From Vulcanimicrobiota bacterium (GTDB lineage: Bacteria; Vulcanimicrobiota; Vulcanimicrobiia; Vulcanimicrobiales; Vulcanimicrobiaceae), in the NCBI GenBank assembly GCA_003151115.1, contig PLWS01000007.1:62001-126000 (forward strand): DNA of 64,000 nt. The letters run 5' to 3'. Positions 1,629 through 47,391 of this stretch are shown piece by piece. A model generated the notes under the pieces. That model worked only from the letters and a program-made list of their open reading frames with translations. It had not been told where the DNA came from and ran no database searches. Position numbers and translations under genes: made by a program. Position 1 is the stretch's first letter. Each line of letters starts with the position of its first letter.

Positions 1629-2660
1629 ATGCATGTAGACGAACATCTCGAGCAGCTGCGCGCCCGGTTTGAGGACGCGCTAAAAAACTCTGCCGGCGCG
1701 AGCTCGCTCGACGCCGTGCGCGTCGCATTCTTGGGCCGCAGCGGAGAAGTCACCGCGCTGCGCCGTTCGATTGGCAAACTTCCGCCGGCCGAGCGCCCCG
1801 CCGCCGGTCAGCGCATCAATGAAGCGGTCGAAAAGATGGAGCGTGCGCTCAACGACGCGCAGGCGAGCGCCCAGGCGCTCGCGGTCGGGGCGAGTCTGTC
1901 GCAGCGCATCGACGTCACGTTTCCTTCGATACCGCCGCAGCAAGGTTCGATTCATCCGATGAAGCGCGTGATGCACGACGTCTGCGCGTATTTCGAACGG
2001 CACGGCTTCGCCGTCGTGGTAGGACCGGAGATCGAACCCGACTACTACAACTTCGACGCGCTGAACATTCCGCCGGATCATCCCGCGCGCGAAGGCTTCG
2101 ACTCGTTCTTCCTGACGCCCAATCTCTTACTCCGGCCGCACACCTCGCCGATGCAGATCCGCACGATGCAGCAGCACCGCCCGCCGGTCGCCGTGGTCGT
2201 ACCCGGCACGTGCTACCGTCGCGACGCCGTCGACGCGCGCCACTTGTACCAATTCAATCAGTGCGAAGGCTTGCTGGTCGACGAGGGCGTGCACATGGGA
2301 CATCTCAAGGGCATGCTCACCGGCATGTGCCGCGAGATCTTCGGATCCGAACAGCAGGTGCGTTTCCGTCCGTCGTACTTTCCGTTCACCGAACCGAGCG
2401 CGGAGGTGGACACCACCTGCCCGCTCTGCCGCGGAGCCGGCGGCGAGTGCCGCATGTGCGGCGGTTCGGGATGGATCGAGCTGGGCGGCGCGGGCATGGT
2501 GCATCCCAACGTGCTGCGCAACGTCGACTACGATCCTGAGATCTACTCCGGCTGGGCGTTTGGCTTCGGCGTCGAGCGCATGGCACTGGTGCGCTACGAC
2601 GTGGACGACATCCGGCGCTTCTTCGAAAACGATGACGCGTTCTTGGAACAGCTGGCTTGA
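1629..2660 (+). CDS. pheS: Phenylalanyl-tRNA synthetase alpha subunit
   Basis: 343 aa; GSIHPMKRVMHDVCAYFERHGFAVVVGPEIE...HTSPMQIRTM...GLLVDEGVHMGHLKGML...FGFGVERMALVRYDVDDIRRFFEND. Confidence 0.98.
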   Translation: MHVDEHLEQLRARFEDALKNSAGASSLDAVRVAFLGRSGEVTALRRSIGKLPPAERPAAGQRINEAVEKMERALNDAQASAQALAVGASLSQRIDVTFPSIPPQQGSIHPMKRVMHDVCAYFERHGFAVVVGPEIEPDYYNFDALNIPPDHPAREGFDSFFLTPNLLLRPHTSPMQIRTMQQHRPPVAVVVPGTCYRRDAVDARHLYQFNQCEGLLVDEGVHMGHLKGMLTGMCREIFGSEQQVRFRPSYFPFTEPSAEVDTTCPLCRGAGGECRMCGGSGWIELGGAGMVHPNVLRNVDYDPEIYSGWAFGFGVERMALVRYDVDDIRRFFENDDAFLEQLA

Positions 2661-5023
2661 TGCGCGTCCCTTTAGGCTGGCTCCGCGATTATGTCGAGCT
2701 GCCGGCCGATCCAGGCGCCGTCGCGCAGATGCTGGCGCTGCTCGGCTTTCCGGTTGCGTCGATAGAAACGCGTCCGATCATTACGGGCGTTATCGCCGGC
2801 CGCATCGCGGAGCTCGGTAAGCATCCCAATGCCGATCGGTTACAAGTCGGCCGCATCGACGTCGGCGACGGTGCGCCGCTCACCATTGCGACGGCTGCAA
2901 CCAATGTCGCCGCCGGCCAAACGATCGCGGTCGCGACGATCGGCGCGCGTCTTCCGCAGCTCACGATCGAGCGCCGGAAGATGCGCGGCCTCGAATCGGA
3001 AGGCATGATGATCTCGGCCGAAGAGCTCGCGCTGCCCGCCGAATGGTTCGAGGACGGCATCATGCAGTTCGAGGAGTCGCTGCGCCCCGGTACCGACGTC
3101 GTCGAATGCTTCCGGTTGGGCGAAGCCGTGCTCGACGTCGAGGTCACGAGCAACCGCGTCGATGCCATGTCGGTGATCGGCCTGGCGCGCGAGCTGGCGG
3201 CCTATCAAAACGTTGCGCTGCGCGCACCCGATCTTTCGAATCCGGGCGACGGCGCGGGCGGACCGAAAGCCGAGGTCACCATAGAGTCCCCCGACTGCCG
3301 GCGCTTCGTCTCGCAGATCTTCACCAGTGTGAAGAGCGGACCGTCGCCGGCGTGGATGCGCATTCGTCTCGCGCTGGCCGGGCAGCGGCCGATCAACCGG
3401 CTCGTCGATATTTCGAATTACGTGATGCTCGAAACCGCTCAGCCGCTGCACTTTTACGACGCGGCCAAGATTCCGAATCATCATCTTATCGTCCGCGATG
3501 CGCGTGCGGGCGAACGGTTCGTCGCGCTCGACGGTTCGGAACACGAACTCACCCCGCAGGCCCTCGTGATCGCGAGCGAAACGTCGGCGGAGTGCTTGGC
3601 GGGTTTAATGGGCGCGCGCAGCAGCGAAGTGACCGGCGCGACGCGCGAACTGATCCTCGAATCGGCCAACTTCAGCGGACCGCGCATCCGCCGGACGGCC
3701 GGCCAGCTCGGTTTTCGTACCGAAGCCAGCTCGCGCCATGAGAAATCGCTCGCGCCCGCACTAACGGCCGTGGGCGCCGCGCGCGCCGCACAGCTGCTGG
3801 CGCAATCCGGCGCCACGCCGCACGAGCCGGCCGCGTTCGGCCCGCCGTTGAGCGCGCCCGAACCGATCGATTTCAAAATCTCCGACGTAAAACGCCTCTT
3901 AGGATACGAGCTGGACCTGCAAGCGATCACCGAACGCCTCGACGGGCTCGGCTTCAAGGTCGAACCGCAGGCGGATAGCGTGCTGCGCGTCGTTTCACCC
4001 GCGTGGCGCACCGATGTGACGTGCAGCGCGGACGTGATCGAAGAGATCGCGCGCATGGCGGGCTACGACCGCATATCATCGGAGATTCCCGCGGTGCGCG
4101 CGCACGACATCGCAAGCGGGGACTACCGTCGCGAACGTAAAGCTGCCGCGACGCTGGCGGCATTGGGATATCGCGAGATCGTCACGTACTCGCTGCACGG
4201 CGCGCACGTCTACGAGAAGATCCGGCGCGCCGGTCTCGAGCCGCCCGTGCGGCCGGTCGAAGTCCAGAATCCCCTGAGCGAAGATCAGCGCTACTTGCGC
4301 CACTCGCTGGGACCGGCGATGGTGACCCATCTCGCGCGCGCGAACGCACCCGCACGCGCATTCGAGATTGGACACATCTTCTACACCGAAGATCGCCAGC
4401 CGCTGGAAACGTCGATGGCGTTCTTCGCATTTTCCGCCGAACCGCATGACGAGCCGGAATGGCGCGACTCGCATTTTCTGCGCGCCAAGGGAGATTGCGA
4501 AGCGTTTCTACGCGCGATGACCGGAGAGAGCCATTTCGAAACCGCCGCGGACGAGCGCGAGGGTTTTCATCCCGGAAAGACCGGGGTCGTGCTGATGGGC
4601 GGGCGAGAGATTGCGGTCGTAGGACAAGTCGATCCCCGCTTGCTGCGCACCTTTGAAGCGCCGCTTCCCATCTATGCCTGCCGCATGATCTTATCGACCC
4701 TGCCGCCGTACGATGTTCCACAATTCAAACCGCCCTCCAAGTTTCCGTCGACGTATCGCGACCTCGCGCTCGTCTGCGATATCGATCTGCCGGCGCAGCG
4801 CCTTGAGAACGCGCTGCGTTCTGCCGCGGGCTCGTGGTGCACGGCGGTAGCAGCGTTCGACGAATATCGCGGAGCGCAGGTACCGGCCGGCAAGAAAAGC
4901 ATCGCGATTCGCCTGACACTGCAAAAACCGGACTCGACCATCACCGACGCCGAGGCCGACGCGGTCATCGAAAAGGCCGTAGCGGCTCTGAGCTCTCAAT
5001 TCGGCGTGACGCTGCGCGCATGA
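2657..5023 (+). CDS. pheT: Phenylalanyl-tRNA synthetase beta subunit
   Basis: 788 aa; B1 tRNA-binding domain, B3/B4, B5, FDX-ACB C-terminus (PSKFPSTYRDLALVCD...DEYRGAQVPAGKKSIAIRLTLQ); overlaps pheS by 4 bp. Confidence 0.98.
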   Translation: MMRVPLGWLRDYVELPADPGAVAQMLALLGFPVASIETRPIITGVIAGRIAELGKHPNADRLQVGRIDVGDGAPLTIATAATNVAAGQTIAVATIGARLPQLTIERRKMRGLESEGMMISAEELALPAEWFEDGIMQFEESLRPGTDVVECFRLGEAVLDVEVTSNRVDAMSVIGLARELAAYQNVALRAPDLSNPGDGAGGPKAEVTIESPDCRRFVSQIFTSVKSGPSPAWMRIRLALAGQRPINRLVDISNYVMLETAQPLHFYDAAKIPNHHLIVRDARAGERFVALDGSEHELTPQALVIASETSAECLAGLMGARSSEVTGATRELILESANFSGPRIRRTAGQLGFRTEASSRHEKSLAPALTAVGAARAAQLLAQSGATPHEPAAFGPPLSAPEPIDFKISDVKRLLGYELDLQAITERLDGLGFKVEPQADSVLRVVSPAWRTDVTCSADVIEEIARMAGYDRISSEIPAVRAHDIASGDYRRERKAAATLAALGYREIVTYSLHGAHVYEKIRRAGLEPPVRPVEVQNPLSEDQRYLRHSLGPAMVTHLARANAPARAFEIGHIFYTEDRQPLETSMAFFAFSAEPHDEPEWRDSHFLRAKGDCEAFLRAMTGESHFETAADEREGFHPGKTGVVLMGGREIAVVGQVDPRLLRTFEAPLPIYACRMILSTLPPYDVPQFKPPSKFPSTYRDLALVCDIDLPAQRLENALRSAAGSWCTAVAAFDEYRGAQVPAGKKSIAIRLTLQKPDSTITDAEADAVIEKAVAALSSQFGVTLRA

Positions 5024-5550
5024 TCTGGCCGGACATTCTGATCGCCGCCATCATTTTGATCGCCGCGCTCAAAGGCTACAAGCGCGGCTTCGTTCTGGAG
5101 CTGAGCGGATTCGTAGCCCTGGCCGCATCGGTCATCGTGCCGTGGTTCTACCGCGGGTCGCTGGACGGGTTCTTTCAATCCGTGTTTCATCTGGGCAGCG
5201 GGTCCGCGCACGTGGTCGCGATGTTTCTGGTCGGCTTGGCGACCTATGTCGCGATCCTGCTCATCGCGCGCGCGCTCAACACCGTGACGAAACTGCCGTT
5301 TCTCGGATTGGGAAACGCGTTAGGCGGCGCCGCGATCGGCGTCGTCAAGGCAGTCGTGCTGATTTGGCTGCTGCTCTACGTGGCGCTCTTCTTTCCGCTC
5401 TCGCCCGATATTCGCGCGGATCTGCACCGCTCGGTGCTCGTCGGTTACGAAACCAGTCCGAACGATCGCGTGGACGGCGCCATCATCGCGACGTTCCCGT
5501 GGTTTGCGCGTCCATTTGCACACTACTTTTTTGCTCACCACCGGGTATAG
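5020..5550 (+). CDS. CvpA family membrane protein
   Basis: MIWPDILIAAIILIAALKGYKRGFVLELSGFVALAASVIVPWFYRG...: 4-TM CvpA-like; ATG overlaps pheT stop. Confidence 0.8.
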   Translation: MIWPDILIAAIILIAALKGYKRGFVLELSGFVALAASVIVPWFYRGSLDGFFQSVFHLGSGSAHVVAMFLVGLATYVAILLIARALNTVTKLPFLGLGNALGGAAIGVVKAVVLIWLLLYVALFFPLSPDIRADLHRSVLVGYETSPNDRVDGAIIATFPWFARPFAHYFFAHHRV

Positions 5551-6703
5551 CGCCGCCTAAATCCAAAAAGACGCGCAGCGCGGCTTTTCCGGCGGCGCCG
5601 ATCTGCACCGGCACGTCGTAATCGAGCAGCGCGATCTCGATCGCTTGGATCGCAGCCAGCACGTCGGTTTGCGAAATGTCGCCCATCGTTCCCATGCGCA
5701 CGATCTTGCCCTTGAGATCGAGTTGACCGCCTGCCAGCGTCACACCGCGATTCGCCCGCAAGCCGCGCAGCAAGCCGGCGGCATCAACGCCGGCGGGAAC
5801 CTTCGCGGTAACGACGGTGACGGAGTGCGCCCCGGGCTGGGAAAAAACCTCAAGTCCGAGCGCCGAAAATGCCGCGCGGATCGCTTCCGCGTACGTTGCC
5901 AGCCGCGCGTGTATTGCCGGCGCGCCTTCGCGACGGTACTGCTCTAGCGCGGCGTCGAGCGCGAACATTGCGCTGACCGGCGACGTCCACGGCATCTGAC
6001 CCTGCCGCGCAAACTCGCGAGCCTTCAGCAGATCGAAGTAAAAGCGCGGCGTCTTCGAAGTTTCGATCGCGTCCCACGCACGCGGGCTAACGGCGAGCAT
6101 CGCGACGCCGGGCGGCGCTGCGATCACTTTTTGCGATGCGCCCACGACGATGTCATATCCCCATTCGTCCATGCGGAAATCGGTTGCGCCAAGACCGCTG
6201 ACCGAATCGACGATCGTGAGTGCGCCGTGCGCTTGCACGATCGCGGCCAGTTCGGCCATGTCACTTTGAACGCCGGTCGACGTTTCGTTGTGCGTCAGCA
6301 GAATGCCGCGGTAACGGTGATCGGCATCCGCGGATAGCCGCCGCGCAAGCTCGTTCGGATCGACGGCGAACCCGGGACGCGGTTCGATCGCATCCACCGT
6401 CATGCCATAGGTGCGCGCGATCGCGATCATGCGCTCGCCGAAGACTCCCATCGGAGCCGCCAGCAGCGCGTCGCCGGGCGAAAATGCGTTGGCGATTGCG
6501 GCTTCCAATCCGCCGGTTCCGGACGACCCCAGCAAAACGATCTCGGCCTCTTGCGTTCCAAAGAGGGGACGCAAACCCGCATAGATGCGTTCGACCAACT
6601 CGCTGAACTCAGGGCCACGATGATCGATGAGCGGCCGGTTCATCGCTCCGAGCACGCGTTCGGAGACGGTCACCGGGCCCGGGATGAACAGCAGCTCTCG
6701 CAT
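5483..6703 (-). CDS. Class V aminotransferase (alanine-glyoxylate/serine-pyruvate type)
   Basis: 406 aa; LFIPGPVTVSERVLGAMNRPLIDHRGPEF...VDSVSGLGATDFRMDEWGYDIVVGASQKVIAAPPGVAMLAVS (PLP lysine region). Confidence 0.93.
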   Translation of the reverse strand: MRELLFIPGPVTVSERVLGAMNRPLIDHRGPEFSELVERIYAGLRPLFGTQEAEIVLLGSSGTGGLEAAIANAFSPGDALLAAPMGVFGERMIAIARTYGMTVDAIEPRPGFAVDPNELARRLSADADHRYRGILLTHNETSTGVQSDMAELAAIVQAHGALTIVDSVSGLGATDFRMDEWGYDIVVGASQKVIAAPPGVAMLAVSPRAWDAIETSKTPRFYFDLLKAREFARQGQMPWTSPVSAMFALDAALEQYRREGAPAIHARLATYAEAIRAAFSALGLEVFSQPGAHSVTVVTAKVPAGVDAAGLLRGLRANRGVTLAGGQLDLKGKIVRMGTMGDISQTDVLAAIQAIEIALLDYDVPVQIGAAGKAALRVFLDLGGAIPGGEQKSSVQMDAQTTGTSR

Positions 6704-39829: not shown

Positions 39830-40984
39830 ATGGCCTCCATTTCCGGAGCACGCCCCGCGCCCCTGGGTCTGTTGCGCTCGCTGCGCTTACCGCTGCTCGA
39901 CGCTTACATACTGCGCGAGTTCATGGGGCCGTTCGTATTCGCGTTCCTCGCGTTCTTTTTATTTTGGGGTTTCAACATTTTCTTCTTGGCCGCGAATCAA
40001 ATCATCGGCCACGGCGCGCCGTTCTTTCTCGTCTTGCGGTTCGTCGCGTTCCGCGTGCCGCAATCGATTCCGATGGCCTTTCCGTTCGCGGCACTTTTCG
40101 CAACGCTGCTTGGCATCGGACGCCTGATGGCCGACAACGAAATCAACGCGATTCGCACGTCCGGCACGTCGCTGTGGCGCCTCTGTCTTACGCCGCTGGT
40201 TTTCGGATTTACGGTTTTTTTATTCGCCTGGGCGATGAACGAATTCGTGGCGCCTAAATCGGTCGAGATTTCAACGCGCACGTTCTATCAGATCATCTAT
40301 CACACCGGCGCGCTGCCGGTCGAGTCACAGTTTTTTCGTAAGGACCCCGATACGGGCAACGAGTTCTTCATCGATCACGTGATGGCCGACGGCAGCACCA
40401 TGGTGGGCGTGCAGATCTTCAAGCCCGGACGCAACGGTTACTGGAACGAAACGATTCAGGCCAAGACCGCGCACGTGGTTGGACCGACGCTGGTTCTGAA
40501 CGGCGTCGTCATTACGTTTTATAACAGCCAAGGCTATATGACGTCGCAGGTTGACAAGTCTGAAGCCAGCATCGGCCTGCCGCTGGGAGAAAACGCGGCG
40601 CAGTTCCTGAGCAGCGCGAGCAGCGACGCATGGACGATGGATTCCAAACAACTGGCCCACCAAGTCAGCGCATTACAAGCGCAAGGTGTCGGCGGCGAAG
40701 CGCTGGGAAATCTGCAAGTCAATCTCGCAGACAAGCTGGCGTTTCCGTTCTCCGCGCTGGTCGCGGTCATGCTGGCGCTGCCGCTGGCGATCATGTTCGG
40801 AAAGAAAGGGCGCATGATGGGAATCGCGATGTCGATCATCGCGTTCTTCGTCTATTTCATTCTCTCGGAAGCGGCCGCCGCGTTCGGCGGCACGGGGCGC
40901 GTGAACCCGTACATCGTTTCCTGGATCCCGAACCTCGTCTTTGGTGTGGGCGGCCTGGCGTTACTTTGGTACGAAGAGCACTAG
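39830..40984 (+). CDS. LptF/LptG (YjgP/YjgQ) family permease
   Basis: 384 aa; LLDAYILREFMGPFVFAFLAFFLFW...PQSIPMAFPFAALFATLLGIGRLMADNEINAIRTSGTSLWRL. Confidence 0.92.
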   Translation: MASISGARPAPLGLLRSLRLPLLDAYILREFMGPFVFAFLAFFLFWGFNIFFLAANQIIGHGAPFFLVLRFVAFRVPQSIPMAFPFAALFATLLGIGRLMADNEINAIRTSGTSLWRLCLTPLVFGFTVFLFAWAMNEFVAPKSVEISTRTFYQIIYHTGALPVESQFFRKDPDTGNEFFIDHVMADGSTMVGVQIFKPGRNGYWNETIQAKTAHVVGPTLVLNGVVITFYNSQGYMTSQVDKSEASIGLPLGENAAQFLSSASSDAWTMDSKQLAHQVSALQAQGVGGEALGNLQVNLADKLAFPFSALVAVMLALPLAIMFGKKGRMMGIAMSIIAFFVYFILSEAAAAFGGTGRVNPYIVSWIPNLVFGVGGLALLWYEEH

Positions 40985-40992
40985 GCGGCGTC

Positions 40993-43900
40993 GTGTTTGG
41001 TTCGCAGGGTCGCGCAGTTCGCGCAACGATTTGCTTGACGACGTTTCTGGCCGGATTCTTTCCCATAGCGGCACCGGCGCGCGACGTCAATTTTGAAAAC
41101 GCGAACCTCAAGAGTCACGATTTCCGCAACGCCGATCTGCGCAACGCGGATCTGCAAGGCGCCGACCTGAGCGGCGCCGACCTGACGCGCGCAAATCTCA
41201 CCGGAGCCAATATGCAGGGCGCGCACTTGGAAGGCGCGATTCTGCAGAATGCGATTCTGATACGTGCGAATCTGCAGTCGGCCGACTCGCAAGATGCGAT
41301 TTTCCAAGGCGCATCCTTGCAGCAGGCAAATATGCAGAGTGCGTTGTTGTACGGCGCTCATCTTTACCGCGCGAATTTGCGGCACGCCGATCTCGCCGGC
41401 GCAAACCTCGAAACGGCCGACCTGCGCTCCGCCGATATACGCGACGCAAACCTACAGGGGGCAAACCTGTTGCGCACGGATACGCGCGGCGCACGCTGGT
41501 TCGGAGCCAGTTTGCAAAACGTACGGCGTTCGGACCAGATCGCGCTGGCGACGCCGCTGCCCGAATTATCCGCGCCGCCCGTTCCGGCAACGCCCGAGCC
41601 GATCGTGCGCGTAACCGCTGCGCCAAAACGATTGCCCGTCAAAACCGCAATCGCACGCGTCACTCCCGCACCATCGCCATCGCATACGCCATCGCTGGTT
41701 TTAGCGCGAAAGAAGATCGCCGTTGCGGCCGTTACGCCGCCTGCGCCGCACATGTTGCCGGTCCCGCGCATTTTGCCGGCGCCGTCACCTTTGCTAACGC
41801 CGCATCCTTTGCTAACGCCGCTGCCGTTGCTAACGCCGGCGCCACTGCCCGCGCCCGCGCCTTCTCCGGCGGCTGCGCAAAACGTGATGTCATCCGAAGC
41901 AATCTTTGCACTGCTCAACGCGCGACCGTGCGCGTCGCGTTCGAGCGGCACGGGCGATCTGATCGCACAAGTCACGCCGACTCCCGCGCCGTCGCCGAGT
42001 TCGAGCGCGAGTGTTCCAAACGCACCGCTGGCACCGGGTCAGCTCTACGCAACGCCCATTCCGACGGGGAGTCCAGTTACGCCACCGCCGATTCCTACGC
42101 CCACGCCGGCCACAAAGGCAAGCACCGGGCCCGTCTTTCTTATTCGTGGCTCCGCGCCGCCGTCGATTGTCCCGAACGGCTCGCCGACGCCGGAGGCGTC
42201 CCCGACACCGATCGTGGCACCCACGTTGCGCCCCGGCTTTGTTGCAGTCATGGCCGACAAGTTCGTCGGCAATGCGAACAAACAGGGCGCGCCCGGCGAC
42301 GCAATCGGCAACGTCCACATCTTCTATCAAGACGAAGTGCTCGTCGGCGATCGCGCGCACTATGACGGGTTCAAAACGATCACCGTCACCGGCAATCCCT
42401 ACATCGTCGACAACACGAATACGTCGATCTTGCACGGCGATCAGATCGTGTTCGATACGCTCGCTCAGCGGGCCGAACTGATCAACGGCCGCGGCGAGAG
42501 TTCGCAAGGCGTGGAACGCGGGCTCGTCTACTTCAGCGCGAAGGACTTGCGAGCCGACGAACACGGCGTCTCGCACGGCGATTACGCGAACGTCACAACC
42601 TGCGAGCGCCCGCGCGCGGGCTATCACATTACCGGGCGCACCATCGACGTTTATCCCGGCGATCGAATGGTCATCAGCAAAGCCGTGCTCTTCTTAGGCG
42701 CGGCCGCAGTCTTCTATCTGCCCAAAGTGATCATTCCGTTGCGGCGCATCGACGACGACCGCCAGCGCCCGTCGTTTTTTCCCGAAGTCGGCTACAACTC
42801 ATACCAGGGCTTTTACATCAAAGCTAAACCCGGATTCGGTCGCGACCAGTACTTTTATGGCTATTATCGCGTCGAGTACTACTCAAAACAGGGGTTCGGC
42901 TTGGGGTACACCGCGTTCTTAGCCCGGCAGAGCGGCAAGCGGCAATCCTCGATCGACTCGTATGCCATTCACGACCGGCGCACGCAGACGACGACCTGGA
43001 ATTTGAACGCGCAAGACACCGAAAACTTCTCGCAGACCCTGCGCGCGCGTTTCGGATTCGCTTACAACAGCAACTTCGGACCGTTGATCAACCTGCCGCC
43101 CAACGAAAACATCAACGCGTCGATCGCGCACACCGGCGCGCACGCGCAGCAGAACTATACGTTTGCGCACAGCAGCATCGCCACCCAGTCTGCGAACGAT
43201 AATTTTGGGTTCACCGAAACGCGCAGCTTCTCGGCGTCGACGCAGAATAGCCTCGCTATCAACATCAGTTCGGCGCGCACCAATTACGGGCTCAACAACG
43301 CAAGCAGCAACTCGACCGGCACGTTCAGCGATCTGCTGCAATGGAGCAACAAGTTTGCCGCCTACACGCTGAACTACGACAAGAGTTTCGCCCGCACACC
43401 GTACGGGCTGAACAAGGAGCCCGAACTCCAGATCCATCCGTACAGTTTTCTCAAGCACTTCATCATTCCGATCACGTCGTCGTTCACAATCGGAGACTAC
43501 AACGAACCGCAAACGCCGCTCTCCACATCGCGCGCGGACTTGAATTTCAACTTCGGCCCCGCGCTCTATCACGTCTTGGGCAGCGACATCAGCGCCGGCG
43601 TAAACGTCCACCAGTACGCGTACGGCACGGGCGACATGAAGGCCAGCATCCAGCAGAACGCCTCGATGTCGACACCGATCGGAAGCCACGCCCTCAATGC
43701 GATCACCTACAATGAAACCAACTACAACGGTCCGCCCTTCGTGCCGTTTAACACGCTCGACCAGCAGCCGACGAACAACTACAAGAGCGCGGCCGACGTC
43801 TTACGTTTCTACAACAGCGACTTCTACACGCTGACGCTGAGCTTCAACACCGCTTTCAACCGCGCGGCGCAGCCGGTGCAGTATCAGCTCGCCGCTCACC

Positions 43901-44235
43901 CGTCGCGCCGCTCGTACGTCGCGCTCGCAGGATCGTTCATCCCGGGCCCCGGCAACGGTTTCTTCATGACAAACCTGCAGTTTTCGACGCCGTTCGGAAA
44001 CGGGTCGACGCTGCAGTTCATCGGCGACATCGACTGGAAGAACAAGGGCCGCATCATCAACAAGAGCATTTACTGGAGCCGCATCATCGGCGACTGCTAT
44101 CAAATCCAGCTCCAATACAATCAGGCCGCGAAGCAAGTGAACCTCACGCTGAACCTGCTGGCATTCCCGTCGCGCGGCGCAAGTTTCGGCTTAAACTCGA
44201 CCGGCTCGATCATTCCGACCAGCTTCAACTTCTAG
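40993..44235 (+). CDS. LptD-like outer-membrane protein with N-terminal pentapeptide-repeat domain and Pro-rich linker
   Basis: About 1080 aa from GTG 40993: signal peptide, about 27 tandem A(D/N)LxX pentapeptides, Pro/Thr/Ser-rich linker, LptA/OstA-like domain (MADKFVGNANKQGAPGDAIGNVHIFYQDEVLVGDRAHYD), then beta-barrel-like C-terminus. Confidence 0.82.
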   Translation: MFGSQGRAVRATICLTTFLAGFFPIAAPARDVNFENANLKSHDFRNADLRNADLQGADLSGADLTRANLTGANMQGAHLEGAILQNAILIRANLQSADSQDAIFQGASLQQANMQSALLYGAHLYRANLRHADLAGANLETADLRSADIRDANLQGANLLRTDTRGARWFGASLQNVRRSDQIALATPLPELSAPPVPATPEPIVRVTAAPKRLPVKTAIARVTPAPSPSHTPSLVLARKKIAVAAVTPPAPHMLPVPRILPAPSPLLTPHPLLTPLPLLTPAPLPAPAPSPAAAQNVMSSEAIFALLNARPCASRSSGTGDLIAQVTPTPAPSPSSSASVPNAPLAPGQLYATPIPTGSPVTPPPIPTPTPATKASTGPVFLIRGSAPPSIVPNGSPTPEASPTPIVAPTLRPGFVAVMADKFVGNANKQGAPGDAIGNVHIFYQDEVLVGDRAHYDGFKTITVTGNPYIVDNTNTSILHGDQIVFDTLAQRAELINGRGESSQGVERGLVYFSAKDLRADEHGVSHGDYANVTTCERPRAGYHITGRTIDVYPGDRMVISKAVLFLGAAAVFYLPKVIIPLRRIDDDRQRPSFFPEVGYNSYQGFYIKAKPGFGRDQYFYGYYRVEYYSKQGFGLGYTAFLARQSGKRQSSIDSYAIHDRRTQTTTWNLNAQDTENFSQTLRARFGFAYNSNFGPLINLPPNENINASIAHTGAHAQQNYTFAHSSIATQSANDNFGFTETRSFSASTQNSLAINISSARTNYGLNNASSNSTGTFSDLLQWSNKFAAYTLNYDKSFARTPYGLNKEPELQIHPYSFLKHFIIPITSSFTIGDYNEPQTPLSTSRADLNFNFGPALYHVLGSDISAGVNVHQYAYGTGDMKASIQQNASMSTPIGSHALNAITYNETNYNGPPFVPFNTLDQQPTNNYKSAADVLRFYNSDFYTLTLSFNTAFNRAAQPVQYQLAAHPSRRSYVALAGSFIPGPGNGFFMTNLQFSTPFGNGSTLQFIGDIDWKNKGRIINKSIYWSRIIGDCYQIQLQYNQAAKQVNLTLNLLAFPSRGASFGLNSTGSIIPTSFNF

Positions 44236-44274
44236 ACGGCTCGGGTAGGGCCGGCAGCACCCTCAAGCGGGAAG

Positions 44275-44606: not shown

Positions 44607-45323
44607 TTACGGGCTGTTGATGACTTCGCCGGCGGCGATCTGCGCGCTGCGCGGCGTGACTTGTGGCCAGCCGGCGTTCGCGCTGAACTGCTGATCGAAC
44701 GACGTTGAGACGTCGCTGCCGGGAAGGCCCGTGGTCGGGAACGTGAACGTCTGATCTTGCGGGCCGCCGATGCCGGGCGCGTCGATCGGCTGACCGGAAC
44801 CGTTGGTCGTGAACCAGTTGACGTACCAAAGGTTCGGATTTGCTCCGGGAACGGGAGACGGTGTCGGAACTATGCCGTTAAAGAGCCTGCGATCGAAGGT
44901 CACGGTGAACTGCGTGTTCTGGCCGTTGCTATTGAGGTTGAACTGCAACTGCTGCGGCGTATACTGGATGATTACCGGAGTGGCAACCTGTCCGCCGCCG
45001 ACGCCGGTGTTGCGGACATATTGCACGACCTGCACAGAAGACGTTACGCCATTGCCGCCCACGACGATCGCAAACCAATAGTTCGCATAATTGGTTTGGT
45101 AGCCGTTGGCGTAGGGCATGCCGCCGCTCGTCGACGTGTTGAACATGATGACGTATTGAACGTTGGTGAAATCCATCGCCTGGGCAGTCGTGAACTTGAC
45201 CTGCATGAAACCCGAGGGGAGTCCCGAAGGCGTGATGGAACCGCGGTCGGGGGTTACTTGGCGCCCGCAGGCTGCAAACGTGAACGCCGCAACAGAGACG
45301 ACGAACAAGATTTTGCGTAGCAC
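44607..45323 (-). CDS. lipoprotein, hypothetical
   Basis: GTG 45323 with SD ggaggtaaag; VLRKILFVVSVAAFTFAACGRQ lipobox-like. Confidence 0.6.
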   Translation of the reverse strand: MLRKILFVVSVAAFTFAACGRQVTPDRGSITPSGLPSGFMQVKFTTAQAMDFTNVQYVIMFNTSTSGGMPYANGYQTNYANYWFAIVVGGNGVTSSVQVVQYVRNTGVGGGQVATPVIIQYTPQQLQFNLNSNGQNTQFTVTFDRRLFNGIVPTPSPVPGANPNLWYVNWFTTNGSGQPIDAPGIGGPQDQTFTFPTTGLPGSDVSTSFDQQFSANAGWPQVTPRSAQIAAGEVINSP

Positions 45324-47391
45324 CTTTACCTCCGTCATCGTTTCCGCATTGAGCGCGGTCGCGCTCGCATGTGCTTTTCCCAAGGCGGGACAGGCTTGGC
45401 TCGCCCCGCTGGCGGCGGCGGGCCTGTTCTGGGCTTGGCAGCGGCTCTCCTGGAAACGTGCATTCTTCGCCGGATGGTTCGCCGGCACGATCTTTTTCGC
45501 GATAAATTTTTCTTGGTTCACGCACACTGTCGGCGACTATGTCGGCCCGTTCGCGTTTGCCGTGGTGCTGATCCCGGCGCTCGTAGAAGGGCTGACGTTT
45601 GCTGCAACCGCAGTTGCTGCGCGCGCAGCCGAGCGATACGCCCCGGCTTGGGCGGCACCGGCCGCAGCGGCAGCCGCGTTCACGGTCTTCGAGTGGCTGC
45701 GATCGGTCGGCGTGCTTGCCGTTCCGTTCGCGCAGATCGGGTACTCGCAAACCGTTACGCCGCTGATCGTGTTTGCGCCGTACATCGGATCGTTCGGCGT
45801 GACCTTCGTCGTCATGCTGTTGGGCGCGTATCTTGCGCAGGCAATCGATCTTCGCACACCGCGCGCATTCTTCGCCGTCGTCGTGGGCGTGGGTGCGACC
45901 GCCGCTCTCTGCTACGCGGCATGGCCGGCCCTGCACCGTTTCGCCGAACCGCCGCTCCTGCGCGTTGCGGCCGTGCAAGGCAACATCGCGCAGACGGTCA
46001 AGTGGAATCCGCAGGCATTTTGGCCGACCGTCAACACGTACTTGACGCAGACTCGAAAACTGCAGCCTGCGCACCCGCAGCTGATCGTCCTTCCGGAAAC
46101 CGTCATTCCGACGGATCTCAATACGAGCGACCCCAACGGCGTGCGCGCAATGGTCCGCTCGGATTTTTCAGCGCTGGCGCGCAGTTTGAATGCCACGCTC
46201 GTGGTCGGAAGCCTGGAAGCGCGCGGACCCAAAGATTACAACGCCCTTTTCGTTTTTAATCCATCGGGAACGCTCTCGCAGGTTTACGAAAAACGGCAGC
46301 TCGTCCCGTTCGCCGAATCGTTTCCGGGCGAAGCCTTTCTCAGTTGGCTGCCGAGCTCGGATCTCATCGGAAGGTTTGCAGCCGGACAAGACGACACCGT
46401 CATAACCGCCGGCGGCGTCACGTTCGCTCCGCTGATCTGCTGGGAGTCGGCATTCGCGGATCTCGTGCACGCCCAAGTTGCGCGCGGTGCCCAGTTCCTG
46501 GTGATCTCGACCGATGACGCATGGTTCGGCGAAACGTCCGGGACGTACCAGCACGCACAGATCGCGCAGATGCGCGCGATTGAAAACGGTCAATGGGTAC
46601 TACAGTCAGCCTCGACCGGGATCAGCGGCATCGTCGCGCCCGACGGAACGTGGATACAAGCGACCGCGCTCGATAAGACCGCGATCCTCTCGGGCGAAAT
46701 CCGGGCGCCCACGGGCTCATTCTTCGCGCGTATCGGTCCGACGCCGGTCGTCATCGCGCTCGCTCTGCTGTATGCCGCGATACTCGCACTTCGCACCGTG
46801 CTCGCGCGCGCACGCCGCTGGCGCGCGCCGCAATGGCGCCCCACGCCGGCGCGTTGGAAGCTCTTTGCAGCCGTCGCCGCAGCCGTTCTCTTGATCTGGG
46901 TCATTGCGGGCGTTATATTGGCGGGCAACGAGCCGGGCGCACCGCCGCAAGGCATGACGCCGCTGACGCTGCATGGCGGGCGCGTAACCGGAAACCGCAT
47001 AAGCACGAAATCTTGGATGTTCGAATACGACCGGGCGGAGATGTCGGCCGACGGCGTGCTCGCGACCGTGCAAGGCGTGCGCCGCGGCGTGCTGTACAAG
47101 GACGGTAAACCGTATCTCACCGTCCGCGCCGAACAAGTCTCGGTCAACACGCAAACGTTCGATTTCACGGCGACCGGCGACGTGCACATCACGCAAAATC
47201 AAGACACGAGCTCGGAGCGCTCCTTCGATTCGGATCTCATCCAGTGGATCAACGCGACCAAATCGCTTACTCTGCCGCATCCGAGCGTCGTACGCAGCGG
47301 TGGCGAGACGTTGAAAGTCTCCTCGATAAATGTGAACTTCAATACCGGCCAAATTCGCTTTGGCCAGGTCAGCGGCGGCGTAGCGCCCTAG
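45313..47391 (+). CDS. Lnt-like apolipoprotein N-acyltransferase with C-terminal LptC/LptA-like domain
   Basis: Multi-TM N-terminus; nitrilase domain (VLPETVIPTDL, VYEKRQLVPFAESFPG, PLICWESAF, DDAWFGETSGTYQHAQIAQMRAIENG); extra TM then about 160 aa beta-rich domain. Start codon uncertain (TTG 45313 or 45349). Confidence 0.88.
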   Translation: MRSTFTSVIVSALSAVALACAFPKAGQAWLAPLAAAGLFWAWQRLSWKRAFFAGWFAGTIFFAINFSWFTHTVGDYVGPFAFAVVLIPALVEGLTFAATAVAARAAERYAPAWAAPAAAAAAFTVFEWLRSVGVLAVPFAQIGYSQTVTPLIVFAPYIGSFGVTFVVMLLGAYLAQAIDLRTPRAFFAVVVGVGATAALCYAAWPALHRFAEPPLLRVAAVQGNIAQTVKWNPQAFWPTVNTYLTQTRKLQPAHPQLIVLPETVIPTDLNTSDPNGVRAMVRSDFSALARSLNATLVVGSLEARGPKDYNALFVFNPSGTLSQVYEKRQLVPFAESFPGEAFLSWLPSSDLIGRFAAGQDDTVITAGGVTFAPLICWESAFADLVHAQVARGAQFLVISTDDAWFGETSGTYQHAQIAQMRAIENGQWVLQSASTGISGIVAPDGTWIQATALDKTAILSGEIRAPTGSFFARIGPTPVVIALALLYAAILALRTVLARARRWRAPQWRPTPARWKLFAAVAAAVLLIWVIAGVILAGNEPGAPPQGMTPLTLHGGRVTGNRISTKSWMFEYDRAEMSADGVLATVQGVRRGVLYKDGKPYLTVRAEQVSVNTQTFDFTATGDVHITQNQDTSSERSFDSDLIQWINATKSLTLPHPSVVRSGGETLKVSSINVNFNTGQIRFGQVSGGVAP

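Follow-up and report, generated by a model that had tools for sequence, protein, structure and literature searches.

LptD occurs in nearly all bacteria that bear LPS, and its plan is regarded as fixed: a signal peptide, a jellyroll, and a barrel. The window analyzed here, a whole stretch of 64,000 nucleotides in a 2.56-Mb assembly, comes from the Eremiobacterota, a little-known phylum whose envelope has hardly been studied, and it holds a gene (positions 40993 to 44235, forward strand) in which an array of pentapeptide repeats precedes the parts expected of an LptD. The locus therefore raises the question of whether this protein is an LptD, whether the repeats are a constrained part of it, and what such a head might do at the LPS translocon. 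A selected extra domain on LptD would be a natural experiment on the positioning of the translocon in the envelope.

The gene encodes 1,080 amino acids followed by a stop codon, and its GTG start lies 8 bases past the stop codon of an LptF/LptG-type LPS export permease gene directly upstream (positions 39830 to 40984, forward strand; PF03739, E = 3.5e-68, with TIGR04408 and TIGR04407 below their cut-offs). The order of lptF/G and then lptD is the same in relatives, and the lptD orthologues start at the same place, beginning [M/V]FG. As originally predicted, the protein begins with a signal peptide (residues 1 to 29, positions 40993 to 41079, sequence MFGSQGRAVRATICLTTFLAGFFPIAAPA), which is kept in the orthologues, and the frame is open throughout from 40993 to 44235. 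The same architecture is seen in genomes that were assembled independently and have different accessions, which rules out a frame error and a chimeric contig.

Profile comparison, fold, cysteine pattern, and gene context agree in identifying the C-terminal two thirds of the protein firmly as LptD. This part consists of an LptA/OstA-like jellyroll (residues 410 to 595, positions 42220 to 42777, forward strand) and a beta-barrel (residues 596 to 1080, positions 42778 to 44232, forward strand), in keeping with the original prediction, although the label "porin" given there is wrong, the protein being an LPS translocon. Compared with other LptD proteins, the sequence is too divergent for single-sequence Pfam matching: the jellyroll gave only OstA_2 at E = 0.066, and the barrel on its own gave no match. 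The prediction had been made to depend on an LptA/LptD match in the C-terminal 650 residues, and whereas this nearly blank Pfam result could have counted against it, a profile built from 65 relatives (alignment A1) matched LptD structures in the PDB (7omm, E = 1.3e-11; 8h1r, E = 2.1e-5). Positions 3 to 289 of A1 are the span that matches 7omm, the LptD of Neisseria gonorrhoeae, and this span places the jellyroll, whose strands are also seen in the AlphaFold2 model (mean pLDDT, 82; pTM, 0.51). When the model was compared with the PDB using Foldseek, the 31 best matches were all LptD or LptDE, with E values down to 2e-23; among them are 4q35 and 4n4r, which have vague PDB titles and which we take to be LptD/LptDE entries. 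TM-scores to the LptD and LptDE entries were modest (0.3 to 0.54), which is in line with what a distant relative and a model of two domains would be expected to give. Matches to the C-terminal 671 residues were found in 143 of 151 genomes of the phylum, with a single match in the genome itself. Transport of LPS to the cell surface is the predicted function of the encoded LptD.

The cysteines are arranged likewise. Cys537 (NVTTC, positions 42601 to 42603) and Cys1035 (GDCY, positions 44095 to 44097) are invariant, each being present in 65/65 rows of alignment A1 and 41/41 rows of alignment A2, and the conserved TTC of the lptD relatives aligns with the TC of LptD in 7omm. The two residues lie, as in LptD, in the C-terminal part of the jellyroll and in the last strands, and they are placed as expected for the partners of the LptD inter-domain disulfide. 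Further upstream, Cys313 (positions 41929 to 41931), a cysteine in all 26 alignment rows that cover its column, may correspond to the first LptD cysteine. The mature protein here has three cysteines, against four in LptD of E. coli. Overall, the protein has in common with LptD (7omm, 8h1r, 5iv9, and 9kn3) a jellyroll and a barrel downstream of an LptF/G permease, and it differs in its added pentapeptide-repeat head and in having one more Pro-rich linker ahead of the older N-terminus.

Other components of the LPS pathway are encoded in the same genome. LpxC was found with E = 3.8e-84, and a neighboring pair of exported LptA/LptC-like genes (PF06835 and PF03968) lies away from the lptF/G-lptD locus (L044, positions 3648 to 4792, forward strand). 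For LptE (PF04390), which is fast-diverging, the best match in the genome was below the cut-off (E = 0.229).

The head itself is a pentapeptide-repeat domain of about 29 to 30 units, enough for about seven predicted coils (residues 30 to 178, positions 41080 to 41526, forward strand). The proposed identification of the repeats by HMM was borne out by PF00805, with E = 1.9e-34 and a score of 117 bits (cut-off, 20.2). Thirty consecutive pentads run from residue 32 (nucleotide 41086), of which 27 have a hydrophobic central residue, and 26 combine this residue with a small residue at position i-2; among 10,000 shuffled versions of this stretch, the highest count was 10. The array of about 27 A(D/N)LxX units that had been described is thus real, but the count is somewhat higher and the units are not uniform, since ADSQD and TDTRG lack the hydrophobic center. 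A full-length AlphaFold2 prediction gave regular short strands with good confidence only for residues 32 to about 110, and confidence was below 50 almost throughout residues 112 to 378. Residues 30 to 178 contain no cysteine, and Pfam gave no OstA or LptA match in residues 1 to 196. A single conserved docking face on the helix was not supported, as a range test gave no face a significant excess of conservation (P = 0.32). The core of a pentapeptide helix is packed with its own side chains (Leu, Phe, Met, and Ala) and has no groove for lipid A. Because the repeats stand directly behind the signal peptide, the natural reading of the sequence is that the head is an exported, periplasmic extension, as had been proposed; its location is inferred.

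Between the head and the jellyroll lies a Pro-rich stretch of about 231 residues (179 to 409) with 56 prolines, which AlphaFold2 left unstructured and which is probably disordered. A Pro-rich linker of about 220 residues had been predicted; the linker is present, but it is not continuous, as a conserved segment, QNVMSSEAIFALLNARPCASR, interrupts it. This segment belongs to the older LptD N-terminus (residues 296 to 409, positions 41878 to 42219, forward strand), which consists of an LLNARPC segment and Pro-rich linker 2 and is found in family members that have no repeats; an LLNxxxC-type motif is present in 55 of 75 N-termini. The preceding part, linker 1 (residues 179 to 295, positions 41527 to 41877, forward strand), is specific to the clade and was recognized by its composition, with 31 prolines and 10 Lys/Arg residues against 3 Asp/Glu. 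The LLTP-type tandem is incompletely kept in relatives.

To place the origin of the head, LptD N-termini were compared across more than 100 genomes of the Eremiobacterota. At least 24 consecutive repeats were present in six of the seven genomes of the genus, and never more than five in any other genome examined; the seventh member of the genus (G106) and about 100 other members of the phylum do without the block. The relatives that were to be surveyed according to the original prediction therefore do show the same architecture, in these six carriers of one genus, and the idea that it is common in the phylum was discarded. A truncated assembly does not account for G106, in which the gene is complete, lies behind lptF/G, and has a signal peptide and the older N-terminus. 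In G106 and many family members, the LLNxxxC segment and Pro-rich linker 2 come immediately after the signal peptide, whereas in the carriers the repeats and linker 1 sit between the signal peptide and this same segment. Since the carriers keep all of the older parts, the block was added to a pre-existing LptD within one genus, independent losses in every other lineage being far less economical, and we regard it as a recent gain confined to one clade. No prior account joining pentapeptide repeats with LptD was found in the open-access literature, so that the architecture is new as far as open-access papers and the genomes of this phylum are concerned.

Constraint on the head was assessed from pairwise dN/dS between the six carriers, among which synonymous distances close to 1 are common. 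Values for the repeat block were about 0.07 to 0.21, with a single one-residue indel across the six species. The LptD jellyroll and barrel gave about 0.01 to 0.15, and linker 1 gave 0.23 to 0.45, with many indels (12 to 55 gapped columns per pair). A freely varying repeat array is expected to gain and lose units. The repeat block is under purifying selection and its length is fixed; with its number of units held constant it behaves as a folded, constrained domain, and linker 1 as a length-tolerant spacer.

When the genus was searched with the repeat block, each of the six carriers yielded, besides lptD, the gene of a second exported protein. In the genome analyzed here, this protein has 839 residues (L163, positions 3433 to 5949, reverse strand) and comprises a signal peptide, about 24 pentads, a short Pro-rich linker, and a C-terminus whose sequence resembles that of a barrel. 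This C-terminal part was matched in 108 of 151 genomes, and orthologues without repeats occur in G106 (87% identical) and in the 23 others inspected outside the carriers. The LptD block and the block of the second protein match in one register at 54 to 66% identity, with z scores of about 4 to 7 above the other in-phase registers; the copy in the genome analyzed here, which has diverged, reached about 3. Given a match in a single register at this identity, a common origin of the two blocks is most likely. The start of the second protein looked LptA-like by eye, and a second LptD was therefore considered; Pfam, a PDB profile search, and hhalign to A1 gave no support, and the protein is kept as a probable barrel of unknown family. 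Its C-terminus is 87% identical to that of G106, against 78 to 82% to the other carriers, while in the LptD comparison G106 is the most distant member of the genus (70%); gene exchange with G106 is possible for the second protein.

A third exported repeat protein (L164, positions 2540 to 4738, reverse strand) combines 32 pentads with a Cu_amine_oxidN1 domain (E = 8.5e-21) and possibly a barrel, and it adjoins a stand-alone exported repeat protein of about 66 pentads (L164, positions 4653 to 5912, reverse strand). Relatives of the third protein that are more than 80% identical were found in four further carriers but not in G106; the register match to its repeats is weak (z of about 3). Repeat genes are numerous in the genus, with 24 to 40 Pfam matches in each of the five most complete carrier genomes. 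Because all three repeat additions fall on a single branch of the tree, finding them together does not count as independent support for a common function. In addition (L165, positions 3179 to 5305, forward strand; L166, positions 3681 to 5924, reverse strand), a protein that resembles a membrane peptidase of the BlaR1/M56 type and carries C-terminal pentapeptides stands beside a secreted repeat protein, an arrangement kept in G106 too.

What the head does can be approached from its tether and its interior. About 230 probably flexible residues before the jellyroll and a packed core without a lipid groove point to a tethered docking domain, and our tentative preference, held at a little less than even confidence, is that the head is a periplasmic domain that ties the translocon to another component of the envelope; we infer its location, the docking, and its partner alike. 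In this mechanism, LptD would receive LPS from the LptA bridge at its jellyroll and insert it into the outer leaflet. The clade has gained, directly behind the signal peptide, a repeat block expected to form an exported beta-helix of about seven coils. This helix would remain periplasmic and fold on its own, at the end of a Pro-rich leash of about 230 residues that is long enough to cross the periplasm. The head would not conduct LPS; it would dock on an envelope component and so position or cluster LptD. It might bind the stand-alone repeat protein, one of the similar heads, the cell wall, or the surface of the membrane or LPS. A role for the helix as an LPS conduit that replaces or extends the LptA bridge, as the original prediction had entertained, would suit its position N-terminal to the jellyroll, where LptA docks in known Lpt systems. 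However, two adjacent LptA/LptC-like genes are kept in the genome, about 100 relatives manage without the block, the interior of the helix is filled with side chains, and the flexible chain separates the head from the jellyroll. With LptA-like genes present and a packed core, the head should not replace the bridge, and we consider a conduit highly improbable. Protection of gyrase in the cytoplasm was also set aside, because of the signal peptide and the low scores to the Qnr and MfpA models. Qnr, MfpA, and HetL, which have the same repeat and fold class, are cytoplasmic, with DNA gyrase as the target of Qnr and MfpA, and the head scored far below the cut-offs of these families. DotG/IcmE of the Dot/Icm type IVB system likewise has pentapeptide-like repeats in a large envelope protein, but it matches weakly (E = 3.2e-5) and belongs to a secretion machine that has no relation to LptD.

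A closer parallel is YjbI of Caulobacter, a free secreted repeat protein reported from simulation and thiol probing to lie in the LPS layer and to control outer-membrane composition (PMC12864828). Both are exported pentapeptide helices with a signal peptide and a connection to the outer membrane, and YjbI indicates that secreted repeat helices can act there. The head might accordingly contact lipid A or the membrane surface as YjbI does, resting on LPS or on the inner leaflet close to the translocon, and sense or stabilize the membrane where new LPS enters, and fusion to the LPS translocon would be the most direct place for such contact. Yet the N-terminus of LptD faces the periplasm while YjbI is reported in the outer leaflet; YjbI has two cysteine pairs flanking its helix and a charged C-terminal tail (PMC12864828), whereas the helix here is tethered N-terminally to LptD, has neither feature, and runs into a Pro-rich linker; and similar blocks occur on exported proteins not known to handle LPS. 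We judge this reading unlikely. Contact with peptidoglycan, raised originally along with a possible scaffolding of the LptA bridge, would have the head and linker 1 anchor LptD and hold the translocon at the wall. The Pro-rich, net basic linker is long enough to pass the wall, and blocks on several outer-membrane-type proteins would be expected of a general anchor, but Pfam found no known peptidoglycan-binding signature and the linker is poorly conserved, which makes a wall anchor rather doubtful. A selfish or ornamental module, copied among exported genes and persisting because it folds well and does no harm, is likewise an unlikely account of the block. The abundance of repeat genes in the carriers and the presence of blocks on at least three exported proteins fit such a module; the low dN/dS and the unchanged repeat number in six species, with many pairs at a synonymous distance near 1, argue against it, although selection for foldability alone could explain part of both.

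Similar blocks on other exported proteins suggest a tethering module that could be used repeatedly on outer-membrane proteins of this phylum. In its broadest form, which is speculative and rather improbable, the heads would be a general docking module, and LptD, at least two other barrel-type exported proteins, and the stand-alone repeat protein would form a periplasmic scaffold. Such a scaffold, if it exists, would co-localize LPS insertion with other outer-membrane proteins.

Downstream of lptD, a divergent gene is followed by a gene in which Lnt (apolipoprotein N-acyltransferase) is joined to an LptC-like C-terminal domain (positions 45163 to 47391, forward strand; TIGR00546, E = 2e-83; TIGR04409 for LptC, E = 3.6e-7, below the cut-off). 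These coordinates are those of the open reading frame as listed, and the true start is probably further in. Lnt and the LptC-like domain form one alignable frame in this genome and in G101, G103, and G104 (L031, L032, and L034), whereas they are encoded in separate frames in G102, in G106, and in one relative further removed (L033, L131, and L035); the fusion is thus apparently confined to part of the genus. Between positions 44265 and 44440 of the window, downstream of lptD, a long imperfect inverted repeat was seen by eye, formed by CACTATACCCAGCTTGGCTCTGGGCC and its complement about 150 bases further on.
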